The position numbers were made by a program, and so were the translations under genes. Of a stretch of DNA of 60,945 nt, positions 9,342 to 60,945 are shown in pieces. The notes under the pieces are model-generated. The model was not told the DNA's origin. It saw nothing but the letters and a program-made list of their open reading frames with translations, and did no database searches. The DNA is from Clostridia bacterium 41_269 (GTDB taxonomy: Bacteria; Bacillota; DTU086): positions 1 to 60,945 of the forward strand of contig LGEZ01000012.1 of assembly GCA_001508005.1 (NCBI GenBank). Direction: 5' to 3'. Numbering within the stretch: the stretch's first letter is position 1; every line of letters starts with the position of its first letter.

Positions 9342-10608
9342 TTAGATCCCAATTTTTTTAATTTTTGTTTTTAAATCAACATCTTCTTTAAAGGGCCCGA
9401 TTAAAGCCAGACCAAAATTTTCAGGATCAAATAACTTTTTTGCAAGTTTATGAACCTGTTCTAAACTCACTGACATTATTTCATTTACCATTTCATCAAT
9501 GGTTATAACTCTGTTATGGGTTAATTCTGATTTTCCCAATCTGCTCATATGATTTATTGTGTTTTCCATTGATAAGAGAAGTTCTCCTCTAAGCTGCTGT
9601 TTTGCTCTTTCTAATTCTGCTTCTGTTATTCCATTTTCTTTTATGGAAGCAATAATGTTTAAACATGTATCTATTACAGAATGCACATTGCTGCTGCTTG
9701 TTCCAGTGTGAATACACCATAAACCGCAGTCAAAAAAAAGATACGTTATATGAATATATTGAGTAAGCTAAACTGCGCTTTTCACGGATCTCTTGAAATA
9801 AACGAGAACTTAAACTGCCGCCCACAACGTTATTTAAGATGGTTAAAGCATATATATCCTCGTCAGTATGAGATAAAGCTGGTGTGCCTAAACATATCTG
9901 TACTTGTTCGCAGTTTTTATATTTTATGATTGTTTGGGGTTTAATTTCTGGAGGAATATATTTACTGTTGTCTCCTTGGGGTATGTTGATTTCAAAAGCA
10001 TAACCCAGACTGTCTACAATTTCTCTATGGTTAATATTTCCGGAAACAGAAATAATTATATTGCTGCCTATATATTCTCTCTTTAAAAAATCGAATATTT
10101 TATTCTTTGTAAAAGATGAAACAGATTCGATAGTTCCTAAAATAGGTTTTCCTAAGGGATGACCATCAAAAAAAGCTTTTGCAAAATATTCATGAACTAT
10201 TTCTTCTGGCATGTCTTCATAAGATTTAATCTCCTCAATTACCACTTTTTTTTCATTTTCAATGTCCACACTGGAATAAATAGAATTGAAAAACATATCA
10301 CATAGAATATCTGCAGCATCAAAAAAGTATTCTCCCAAGACCTTTAACAAAAAACATGTATATTCTTTTGTTGTATATGCATTTACTTGGGCTCCCATTT
10401 TTTCGAAAGCTTCTGAAATTTCAAAAGCATTTCGAGATTTTGTTCCCTTAAACTGCATATGTTCTATAAAATGGGAAATGCCGTGCTCATTTTCCTTTTC
10501 ATTTCTTGATCCAGTCTTTACCCAAATTCCCAGGGAAGCTGATTTTACATAGGGAATTTTTTCAGTAACTATCCGCACTCCATTGCTTAAGGTTGTTTTA
10601 TGCAGCAA
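9342..10608 (-). pseudogene. M16 family zinc peptidase (YmxG/MlpA type), frameshifted
   Basis: The first 292 codons carry the inverted zinc motif HFIEH near residue 47 and the matching Glu in the KKVVIEEIKSYED segment. They stop at TGA inside a run of eight T (plus-strand A8 at 9733-9740). Removing one base joins a second frame (DCGLWCIHTG...) to give about 421 aa, the normal family length. The start is also irregular: GAGGAGG is ideally placed for the ATG at 10615, which opens only five codons (MFIAA), whereas the family-like N-terminus begins at TTG 10608 in another frame. The lesion may be real, phase-variable by slippage, or a sequencing error. Confidence 0.85.
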
Positions 10609-45997: not shown

Positions 45998-46318
45998 ATG
46001 ATTTCAGGAATAAAAAAAGCTTTTCTTTTAGGTTTAGGTGCAATTTCTATCACTAAAGAAAAAGCAGAAAAACTTTTTGATGAAATGGTAAAAAGAGGTG
46101 AAATTACAAAAGAAGAAGCCAACGAGTTATTAAATATTTTAGTGGAAAAAGGTAAGGAAGAAGGAGAAAGAATAAAAGAAATTGTAAAAACTGAGATAGA
46201 TAAGGTAAAAATGACCAATAAATTTGTAACTAAACAAGAATTTGAAGTGCTTTCAGAAAGAGTTACTAGGTTAGAAGAAATTCTGCTTAGTAAAAATAAA
46301 GTTGATGAAAATAAATAA
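45998..46318 (+). CDS. Phasin-family-like protein, 106 aa
   Basis: A short hydrophobic N-terminus (KKAFLLGLGAISITKEKAEKL) is followed by long charged helices with coiled-coil character (VTKQEFEVLSERVTRLEEIL). This matches small clostridial phasin-superfamily proteins. Phasins coat polyhydroxyalkanoate granules, but no PHA gene is in the window, so that role is not supported. AAGGAGTGATAACTT precedes the ATG. Confidence 0.7.
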   Translation: MISGIKKAFLLGLGAISITKEKAEKLFDEMVKRGEITKEEANELLNILVEKGKEEGERIKEIVKTEIDKVKMTNKFVTKQEFEVLSERVTRLEEILLSKNKVDENK

Positions 46319-48790: not shown

Positions 48791-50063
48791 ATGGATAAAA
48801 CTACAGAGGTTACTGCAAAAAAACTTCCCAATCGATGGTTGATAGTCGTTGCGGGTATTATTATTCAGCTTTGCCTTGGCACACTGTACGCATACAGTGT
48901 ATTCAGAAACCCTTTGATGGAAAAATTCGGCTGGACCATAACAGAAGCATCCATGGCATTTACTATTTGCCTCGTGTTTTTCACCATCGCAATGGTTTTT
49001 GCAGGGCTGTGGCAGGATAAGGTAGGTCCAAGACTTGTAGGTACGGTAGGAGGAATACTTTTGGGCGCTGGCTGCTTACTGGCCAGCCGAACAAATTCTC
49101 TGACCATGCTCTACATTTCTTATGGAGTTATTGCCGGAACTGGTGTAGGATTTGCCTATGTAACCCCAATCGCAACCATTGTTAAGTGGTTCCCCGATAA
49201 AAGGGGCATGATGACAGGATTTGCAGTATTTGGATTTGGTGCGGGTTCTCTGGTTTTTGCACCTCTTGCAGCAAAACTTATTATAAAATATGGAGTTTTA
49301 AACGCATTTGCCATTCTTGGTATTATATTTTTAATTGCAGTTGCAGGATCTGCTCAATTACTACAGAATCCACCTCAGGGCTGGAAGCCTAAAGGTTGGA
49401 ACCCGCCACAAACCGAAGCAAGTGCCAAAGGAATTACGTTGAGAGAAGACTATTCTCCAGGAGAAATGCTCCGCACATTACGTTTTTGGATTGCATGGAC
49501 AATGTATTTTTTAGGAGCTTCAGCAGGATTAATGATTATTTCACAGGCTGCACCTATGGCAGAAGAAATGGTTGGCTTAAGTAAGGAAACAGCGGCAGCA
49601 GCAGTTGGCGTCCTAGCAATTTTCAACGGTCTGGGTAGGCTTTTCTGGGGTGCTGTATCTGACAGAATTGGGAGAAACCTTTCCATATTCCTTATGTTCT
49701 CTGTATACGCTGTAGACCTTTTCTTTGTACTGCCGCATGCAACAACCTATGCCAGTTATGTTGTTGGAATTTGCGCAGCAGCATTTTCCTTTGGAGGATA
49801 CCTGGCATTAATGCCAGCTATAACCGCAGATTACTTTGGAACAAAAAATTTGGGAATAAACTATGGTTGGATGTTTACAGCATACGGAGCAGCAGCTATC
49901 TTCGGACCATTGCTAATTGCACGTATCAAAGAAGCCTCCGGGGGGGTATTCCCAGGCACTATATATCCTAGCAGCGCTGTCACTCATAGGAGTGGGTTTG
50001 ACTGTAATTAACAAAATTATCCAAAATCGTATTTTTCAGCATGAGATTAAAACAGATTCTTAG
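48791..50063 (+). pseudogene. MFS transporter, OxlT (oxalate/formate antiporter) family, frameshifted at the 3' end
   Basis: Eleven membrane helices are encoded in one frame, with MFS loops DKVGPRLVG near 75 and DRIGRNLS near 295. The reading frame then hits a run of seven G (49940-49946) and ends out of frame at 50011 with a hydrophilic tail. Removing one G continues in a frame encoding ALYILAALSLIGVGLTVIN, the missing helix 12, to TAG at 50061-50063 (about 423 aa). ATG 48791 lies eight nt after AAGGAG at the acs stop. Acetate or another monocarboxylate is the likely cargo, inferred from the acs neighbour. Confidence 0.85.
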
Positions 50064-57937: not shown

Positions 57938-59750
57938 TCAGCTGTTTCTCAAAAACTCACTTAGCAATTTACTCCCTGGAATTATGACAGTTGTAGGACG
58001 CCCATGGGGACATGTTAATGGGTTCTCTAAAGAAAAAAGTTTATTTACTAAAGCCTCCATTTCTTCAAAGTTCATTTTTTTTACCCGCTTTAACTGAAGT
58101 TCTGCAGGCCATCTTTTTTATAAAATCCTCTTTATCTATTTTTCTCCCTTTATTTTTCTCCTCAGCTAATTCATCAATTATATCAAGAAAAAAAACATCA
58201 GCTGTTTGTTTTTCTAGAAAAACAGGAACTTCTCTCAATATAAATGAACTTCCACCAAAATGTTCTACTTTAAAACCAAGTTCTGAAAGATCATTTTTTA
58301 GTTCATCAACAACTGCTGTTTGGGAAGGAGATAACTCAAGTTTTTTAGGGAACACAAGCTGCCTTGCTGCTAAATTTTCCTTTTTAGAATACTCTTCATA
58401 TTTAATTCTTTCATGGGCAGCATGTTGGTCTATAATATACAAATCTTTTCCATATGAACATATAATAAATGAAGCATTATGTTGTCCAATTACCCGTGGG
58501 GTTTCTGCAGTATATTCTAACTGTACCTCTTTGAAAACAATATTATTATCATTATCTTTCTTCGAAAAATCTGTTATGCATTCATTGATAAATTCATTTA
58601 ATTCTTTTATTTGAGAAGTCTTATTATTAAGATATTTCATTTTTAACTGAAAATTTTCTTCTTTTATGTCTACTTTACCATTAGTTTCTTCTTTCCCAAT
58701 CTTATTTACATTAAATTTCTCGTTTTTAAAATCAGCGGAAAAAGTTTTTAACTCAGAAAACCTGCTTTTAAATAAATTTTTTCTAACTGAATTTTTAATA
58801 AATTCAATTATTTTGTTCTCATCTTTAATTCGCACCGTATTTTTTGTTGGATCTACATTAACATCAATAAGATGATTATCAATATTTAATGACAAAACAG
58901 CCATAGGAAATCTATTTTTAGGAATCAAAGTGTAGTAAGCATCATCAACAGCTTTTCTCAAAATTTTGTTTGCAACCCACCTTTTGTTAATGTAAAAATA
59001 TTGATATTTATGAGATCCCTTAGTGTAAAAAGGTTTTGATATAAATCCACTAAGAATCCATGAACTCTCCTTTTCATTAACCTCAATCATATTTTCAACG
59101 GCTTCAAAACCGAAAATTTCTGCAATACAATCAAGAAGTCTGCCATTACCAGCAGTCTGATAAATAATACTGCCGTTATTTACCAAGCGAAATGAAATAT
59201 CTGGAAATCCTAAGGCATATCTGGTGACAGTTTCATTCACAAAATAAGTTTCTTTAGAAATGCTTTTTAGGAATTTTTTTCTGGCAGGTGTATTAAAAAA
59301 TAAATTTTCAACTTCAACAGTAGTGCCATCAGAGCAGCCCACAGCAGAAAAACTTTTCATTTTTCCACCCTCAACTTCCAATCGATAGCCTTGAGCTGAC
59401 CCCTTATACTTGCTAGTTATTATCATTTTTGCAACAGCAGCAATGCTGGCTAATGCTTCACCCCTAAAACCCATGGTCTTTATAAAACTAAGTTCCTCAA
59501 AGCTTTTTAGCTTACTTGTTGCATGGCGAAGATACGACAGCTTTATATCATGCTCATCCATGCCACAACCGTTATCACTCACTTTAATTTTTTCAATTCC
59601 CCCAGAATAAATTTCAACATAAATGCGGGAACTTCCGGCATCAATAGAATTTTCAATTAATTCTTTGACTACTGAAGCTGGATTTACAACAATTTCCCCT
59701 GCTGCAATTTTGTTTGATACAGCAGGGTCCAATATTATAATGCTGCCCAA
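57938..59750 (-). pseudogene. mutL: DNA mismatch repair protein MutL, frameshifted near the C-terminus
   Basis: N-terminal GHKL ATPase: IAAGEIVVNPASVVKELIEN near 16, DNGCGM and GFRGEALASI. The C-terminal endonuclease domain begins with DQHAAHERIKYEEY and reaches ACRTSVKAGKK, then meets a run of eight A (plus T8 at 58075-58082) and stops at 58065 after NEL. Removing one A restores MNFEEMEALVNK through CPHGRPTTVIIPG to TGA at 57938 (about 604 codons). The lost tail holds the zinc-site motif CPHGRP required for nicking. TTG 59750 after GGGGTG gives the usual start. Whether the defect is biological or a read error is unresolved. Confidence 0.88.
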
Positions 59751-59755
59751 TAATA

Positions 59756-60856
59756 TCACCCCAATACTTTTAAGCTCCTCACTTTTTTCTGCAGTTCATC
59801 TAACGTACTAATTGCCTGAAGTGGAGTTATGTTCAATAGATCCAATTTTTCAATCTCTTCCAGAAGTTTTTTAACATCTTTCCACCTATCTTCTTTTATA
59901 TCAAGATCTTTCTTTTTTTCTGAGATTTCTAGAGCATTTGTATTAAAACTTTTTTCCTCAAGCTGCATTAATATTTCCTCTGCCCGTCTAATAATTTCCT
60001 GAGGTAGACCAGCTAATCGAGCAACTTGAATCCCATAACTTTTATCAGTACCACCAGGTACAACTTTATGCAGAAATACTATCCCATCATCTTTTTCTTG
60101 AGCAGTTACATTAAAATTTTTTACACCCGGCAAATAATTTTCCAATGCTGTAAGCTCATGATAATGTGTTGCAAATAGGGTTTTAGATTTATTTTTATTT
60201 GCTATATATTCAACTATTGCCCATGCCAGACTTAGTCCATCATAAGTACTTGTCCCTCTTCCCACTTCATCCAGAAGCACAAGACTTTGGGATGTAGCGT
60301 TATTAATAATATTGGAAACTTCATTCATTTCAACTAAAAAAGTACTTTGACCTGTTGCTATATCATCTGAAGCCCCAATTCTAGTAAATATTTTATCTAC
60401 AATGGGAAGCTCTGCACTTTCTGCTGGTACTAAGCTACCCATTTGAGCCATAATGCAGATCAAAGCATTCTGACGAAGGTACGTGGATTTACCAGACATA
60501 TTGGGCCCGGTAAGTATAATTATCCTTTGATCTTCACTATTTAGTTCCAAATCATTGGGTACAAAATTCTCCTCTCCTACAGCCTGTTCAACAACTGGAT
60601 GTCTCCCTTTCACTATCTTTATTGCTTTTATATCTTTACTGATATTAGGTTTTACATAATTGTAGATTGCTGCAGCTTCTCCAAGAGAACACAAAGCATC
60701 CAGTTCTGCTAAGCTAAGTGCTGACTGCTGTATCTCCTCAATGTACTTTGCTACAAAACTTTTTAGATTATTAAAAATTTCTATTTCCAACCTGCTTAGT
60801 CTTTCTTCTGCGCTTAATACAGTATTTTCATAATCCTTTAACTCTTTAGTTATATA
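59756..60856 (-). pseudogene. mutS: DNA mismatch repair protein MutS, 3' part only, interrupted by an insertion
   Basis: The remaining 366 codons begin YITKELKDYENTVLSAEERL, about residue 500 of a normal 860-aa MutS, and continue through Walker A TGPNMSGKSTYLRQ, the LLDEVGRGTSTYDGLSLAWA Walker B block, TLFATHYHEL and the C-terminal helices. Upstream, homology ends abruptly at 60857 where a sequence resembling an IS terminus begins. The 5' part (mismatch recognition and clamp domains) is outside the window or lost. The remnant lacks the DNA-mismatch domain. Confidence 0.9.
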
Positions 60857-60857
60857 T

Positions 60858-60945
60858 CAGACTGTCGACAAAACCGCTTTTATGCTGTAAGGCATAGAAG
60901 CGGTTTTTATTATAACATCACATAAATTATTAAATAAATTGGTTA
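60858..60945. mobile_element. Probable insertion-sequence end inserted in mutS
   Basis: The sequence beginning CAGACTGTCGACAAAA has the look of an IS terminal repeat (IS1182-like ends are my best guess). It is followed by a strong hairpin (60870-60908), a feature that shields transposase genes from outside transcription. It begins exactly where the MutS frame is lost and runs off the window. No transposase frame is visible in the 88 nt available. Confidence 0.55.
60870..60908. terminator. Hairpin terminator inside the IS-like end
   Basis: AAAACCGCTT-T-TATGC pairs with GCATA-G-AAGCGGTTTT around a 6-nt loop, with A and T runs on both sides. It would block transcription across the junction in either direction. 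Confidence 0.7.

Follow-up and report, generated by a model that had tools for sequence, protein, structure and literature searches.

A mutS frame that stops at a contig end

The right-hand end of this locus raises the question of why the reading frame of mutS, a gene that limits errors in DNA replication, should stop abruptly at the border of a contig: whether the gene is interrupted in the cell, by what, and with what consequences for the genome that carries it. The window (the whole stretch of 60,945 nucleotides analysed here) is the entirety of one contig (C14) in the draft genome of an uncultured, Clostridia-type bacterium (G000; 1.67 Mb, 30 contigs, 95.5% complete), and the window end is thus the contig end.

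The mutS 3′ fragment occupies positions 59756–60856 on the minus strand (366 codons, by direct reading of the sequence), with its stop at 59756 and its last codons, TAT-ATA, at 60851–60856. In this part of the gene, Pfam searches identify domain V of MutS, the ATPase (E 1e-88), together with the tail of domain III, and give no match to domains I, II or IV; an ATPase half lacking its mismatch-binding half, as had been proposed from the sequence, is therefore what the window holds. The insertion point falls in MutS domain IV, and an in-frame TGA created at the junction (TGA-TAT-ATA) blocks any fusion reading out of the adjoining element. The terminal 88 bp of that element (60858–60945) begin with the inverted repeat CAGACTGTCGACAAA at 60858–60872, followed by a bidirectional terminator-like hairpin with T-runs at 60870–60907, which folds stably on both strands (MFE −24.3 kcal/mol, z −6.6; opposite strand −20.5 kcal/mol, z −5.0). 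This arrangement agrees with the IS-like terminal repeat and bidirectional terminator described in the sequence-only reading.

The 5′ half of mutS and the rejoined frame

The sole MutS domain I (PF01624) of the genome is located on a second contig (C18:1263–1598), within a 522-codon open frame at the contig start that contains domains I and II and most of domains III and IV (Pfam). This fragment extends to C18:90 and meets TTTGTCGACAGTCTG at C18:75–89, the reverse complement of the sequence at window position 60858. The same seven bases, TATATAT, adjoin the inverted repeat on both sides of the insertion, one copy at 60851–60857 in the window and the other on C18 (L008), directly after the other element end. 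Joining the flanks with one TATATAT retained gives a single open MutS frame, which aligns with the intact 871-aa MutS of a same-genus relative (G001) at 84% identity over 870 aa with 0 gaps; gene order is also alike in the two genomes (guaB, a lysine-2,3-aminomutase-like gene, miaB, mutS, mutL).

The claim that an IS-like element has cut mutS in half, with a further contig expected to carry the 5′ part joined to the other IS end, is thus upheld at both junctions, by the inverted repeats, by the duplication and by the gapless empty site. The suggested TATA/ATAT duplication at 60851–60856 was correct in kind and too short in extent, since seven bases rather than four to six are repeated. No second MutS1 was found in the genome, which has a single PF01624 match. 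A MutS-like protein encoded on contig C12 is a 33%-identical paralogue with no domain I match and is probably MutS2.

Copies of the element and their target sites

The ends of two further contigs (C3 and C10) carry the 89 bases at 60857–60945 unchanged (100% identity), in line with the earlier supposition that a multi-copy IS had broken the assembly at the window end. Each end of the element is present in three copies, 100% identical to one another (left end on C14, C3 and C10; right end on C18, C26 and C21), and the inverted repeats of the two ends are identical over 15 bp. All six end-bearing contigs stop exactly 89 bases into the repeat, as a de Bruijn assembler would be expected to do at a multi-copy sequence; the element interior is missing from the assembly because the repeat broke it at this point. 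A degraded fourth end (94% identity) is present at C18:28598–28684.

The flanking duplications pair the copies as C14/C18, C3/C26 and C10/C21. The C3/C26 copy (L011 and L035; C3 end and C26 start) lies within a DUF3231-like gene, which it interrupts at a palindrome, and is bordered by a 26-bp duplication, GCTTTTTTGAATAAATTCAAAAAAGT, whilst the C10/C21 copy is located in a terminator-like hairpin and is bordered by a 27-bp duplication, AAAAGCCCGTCTCAATGACGGGCTTTT; each of these duplications is a complete hairpin. Unlike these two targets, the mutS target forms no hairpin. TATATAT was obtained by a scripted search of lengths up to 14, and the 26-bp and 27-bp duplications, which exceed that length, were identified by visual inspection of the flanking sequence.

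Probable assignment of the element to the IS1182 family

IS1182-family transposases (NF033551, scoring above the cut-off) are encoded in relatives from the same phylum, and at four of their loci (L039, L040, L041 and L049) these transposases adjoin ends of the CAGACTGTCGACAAA type with 0–3 mismatches, or 0–4 when a variant at L038 is counted. Elements of 1.5–1.6 kb at L038, L039 and L040 lie between exact direct duplications of 22–35 bp which are themselves palindromes; overall, palindromic hairpins flank two of the three copies in the present genome and four elements of the relatives, the mutS copy being the exception. The two ends of L040 also differ in what lies behind them: at one, the inverted repeat recurs as a short internal copy, and at the other there is a terminator-like hairpin, a layout like that of the ends of the element studied here.

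Ends like those of IS1182-bearing relatives, together with the L040-like layout, make it very probable that the interrupting element belongs to the IS1182 family of insertion sequences, its transposase gene being predicted to read towards the window; the sequence-only reading had named no family. Membership of the family rests on the ends because the interior is absent and the bin contains no IS1182 transposase (no NF033551 or PF13751 match). The exact element-end patterns gave no match in the genome_contigs or viral_contigs collections, and the element-end DNA gave none among 60 relatives. IS1202, considered on account of its long duplications, was dropped once ends of this type proved to bound IS1182 transposases. 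By comparison with relatives having such ends, the element would carry an IS1182 transposase gene read in the mutS direction; the hairpin at 60870–60907 probably sits downstream of this gene and would thus separate it from the mutS 3′ half.

Palindromes are stated to be the targets of some IS1182 members (PMC5678879, citing Siguier et al.). The elements described here resemble this family (NF033551; IS1272) in the inverted repeat that they have in common with the transposase-bearing elements of relatives, and in the hairpin targets of two of the three copies; they differ in the mutS copy, whose target is a 7-bp AT stretch, and in that the transposase is seen only in the relatives. IS1272 itself is reported to replace its hairpin target without duplication, although duplication of the whole hairpin has been set out as a possible route (‘pathway b’; PMC5678879). 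In the present genome and its relatives the whole hairpin is duplicated, and these elements look like products of that route.

Taking the two junctions and the family assignment together, we consider it highly probable that a recently active IS1182-family IS inserted into the domain IV codons of mutS with duplication of TATATAT, destroying the single mutS gene that the genome has.

A second lesion in mutL and frameshifts in homopolymers

The neighbouring mutL gene (58065–59759, minus strand) is frameshifted near its 3′ end when aligned with that of the same-genus relative. DNA alignment places a +1 insertion in an A8 run at 58075–58082 (minus strand), leaving the C-terminal piece that bears CPHGRP out of frame at approximately 57938–58075. 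The extra A removes the CPHGRP C-terminus from this MutL, whereas the MutL of the relative keeps it. The CPHGRP motif is part of the MutL endonuclease site; transcriptional slippage might rescue the A8 shift in part.

For a wider comparison, the intact genes of each genome were aligned with the DNA of the other and the alignments were inspected by eye, covering approximately 1.22 Mb of the present genome and 0.80 Mb of the relative. Clear one-base frameshifts, classified manually, number approximately 14 in 385 genes in the present genome versus approximately 4 in 404 genes in the relative (two-sided binomial test, P = 0.03). Insertions of +1 in runs of at least seven bases number eight versus none (binomial test, P = 0.008), small counts from approximately 400 shared genes. 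The eight affected runs are now 7–10 bases long. Besides mutL, they lie in the window in an M16 peptidase gene (T8 run, 9733–9737) and an MFS transporter gene (G7 run, 49929–49945), both placed by alignment to the relative, and elsewhere in genes for a HAD hydrolase (L112:13718), a Gate-domain protein (L130:8222), an HTH-cupin regulator (L216:14926–15050), a TrkH transporter (L216:16975) and spore photoproduct lyase (L230:324). Several further frameshifts of the present genome lie outside long runs. A tRNA-adjacent candidate at window position 46296 (L135:1543) was discarded as unclear, as were L112:11895, L112:11978, L122, L230:827, L230:17480 and L133:1493, which are near gene starts or poorly aligned.

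An excess of homopolymer frameshifts is as expected of mismatch-repair loss and a mutator state, without proving either. Loss of mutS would abolish mismatch recognition and give rise to a mutator lineage, in which slippage at homopolymers may then have broken other genes, mutL among them; no order of the mutS and mutL losses is implied by this scheme. The case resembles natural mismatch-repair mutators defective in mutS or mutL in that the single mutS is lost, mutL is broken and one-base slips in homopolymers appear to be in excess, and differs from them in being known from an assembled genome alone.

Discussion

Insertion sequences are already known to disrupt mutS; the present case adds the probable IS family, duplication of target hairpins, a second lesion in mutL and an apparent footprint of slippage. 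An artefactual origin of the break, in which the assembler joined mutS to an unrelated repeat and the cell itself carries an undamaged gene, would fit a window that ends in a repeat and the 89 bases common to three contigs. The two mutS halves, however, adjoin the opposite ends of a single element, and the other two copies also lie between exact duplications spread across separate contigs. A random join would yield neither matching inverted repeats at both ends, nor a 7-bp duplication, nor a gapless joined frame; these features together indicate a true insertion, and a chimera is extremely improbable. We also regard it as very unlikely that the element is a non-autonomous, MITE-type relative and not a complete IS. 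It is known from its ends, and the genome contains at least ten MITE-like elements with ends of the same type, but neither end resembles a MITE interior, whilst the hairpin behind one and the short inner inverted-repeat copy behind the other match the full IS1182 element at L040.

If a complete IS is accepted in mutS, its persistence and effect can be read in more than one way. The insertion might be real in part of the population only, a mixed or reversible state amounting to contingency-type mutS switching. Direct duplications permit precise loss in principle, the assembly appears to be a draft bin and population consensus in which a minority with intact mutS could exist, and there is a precedent in Vibrio splendidus 12B01, where an excising mobile element in mutS alters the mutation rate: it separates the original mutS start from the gene and supplies a new promoter and start, so that excision breaks the gene (PMC5296598). 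The present case is similar in having a mobile element within mutS with a bearing on mutation rate, but here the IS end lies in domain IV and it is the presence of the element that breaks mutS. Such switching seems unlikely, as both contigs pass the junction into the element, from which we infer that the inserted state dominated the assembly, and a lasting loss, rather than a brief one, would suit the decay seen in mutL and other genes. Somewhat unlikely, though deserving more weight, is the possibility that the homopolymer excess reflects sequencing or assembly error and that mutS was lost recently, as yet without visible consequence: many of the shifts are in runs of 7–10 bases, a classic context for error, the counts are small, and the sequencing platforms of the two genomes may differ. 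Against this, the exact 89-base overlaps at contig ends point to de Bruijn assembly of short reads, for which consensus errors at runs of 7–10 would be rare; runs of at least seven bases in the shared gene set are free of insertions in the relative, and several shifts are outside long runs.

The fullest reading of the locus, which in our estimation falls a little short of an even chance, is that of a long-lived natural mutator lineage in an uncultured anaerobe of Clostridia type: mutS would have been lost to an IS1182-family element, after which slippage broke mutL and spread through coding homopolymers, and the element family would duplicate each target hairpin in full, the structure of the target rather than a fixed stagger determining how long the duplication is. 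Knowledge of mutators comes mostly from pathogens and laboratory lines. An uncultured genome that has probably lost mismatch repair, set beside an intact relative in the same genus, bears on the persistence of mutators in nature and on which genes are the first to erode, and the range of natural duplication lengths (7, 26 and 27 bp here; 22–35 bp in relatives) bears on how IS1182 transposases recognise and handle hairpins.

Miniature elements and the TwoAYGGAY RNA

Miniature elements of approximately 265 bp with an inverted repeat, CAGACTGTMRACAAA ... TTTGTCAACAAGCTG, of the same type as the IS ends are also present in the genome, at L020, L021, L023, L025, L027, L029, L030 and L032 (contigs C4, C6, C13, C25, C6, C20, C24 and C26, respectively). 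Most sit between copies of a duplicated terminator hairpin of 20–27 bp. They carry the TwoAYGGAY RNA (Rfam RF01731), with scores of up to 53.7 bits against a gathering threshold of 43. This RNA has been proposed as a CsrA-binding sRNA (PMC4333381), and passages of its original description (PMC2864571) make no link to mobile elements; in the present genome its sequence context is that of cargo carried by an IS1182-type MITE. In two relatives (G120 and G001), TwoAYGGAY RNAs at L069, L089 and L090, and more weakly at L068, are likewise found between hairpin duplications and IS1182-like ends, flanks that most of the remaining TwoAYGGAY loci checked do not have. At both L049 and L023, the loop has opposite orientations in the left and right flanking hairpins, the right-hand copy being approximately the reverse complement of the left; a cruciform intermediate, or flipping between the palindromes, may account for this.
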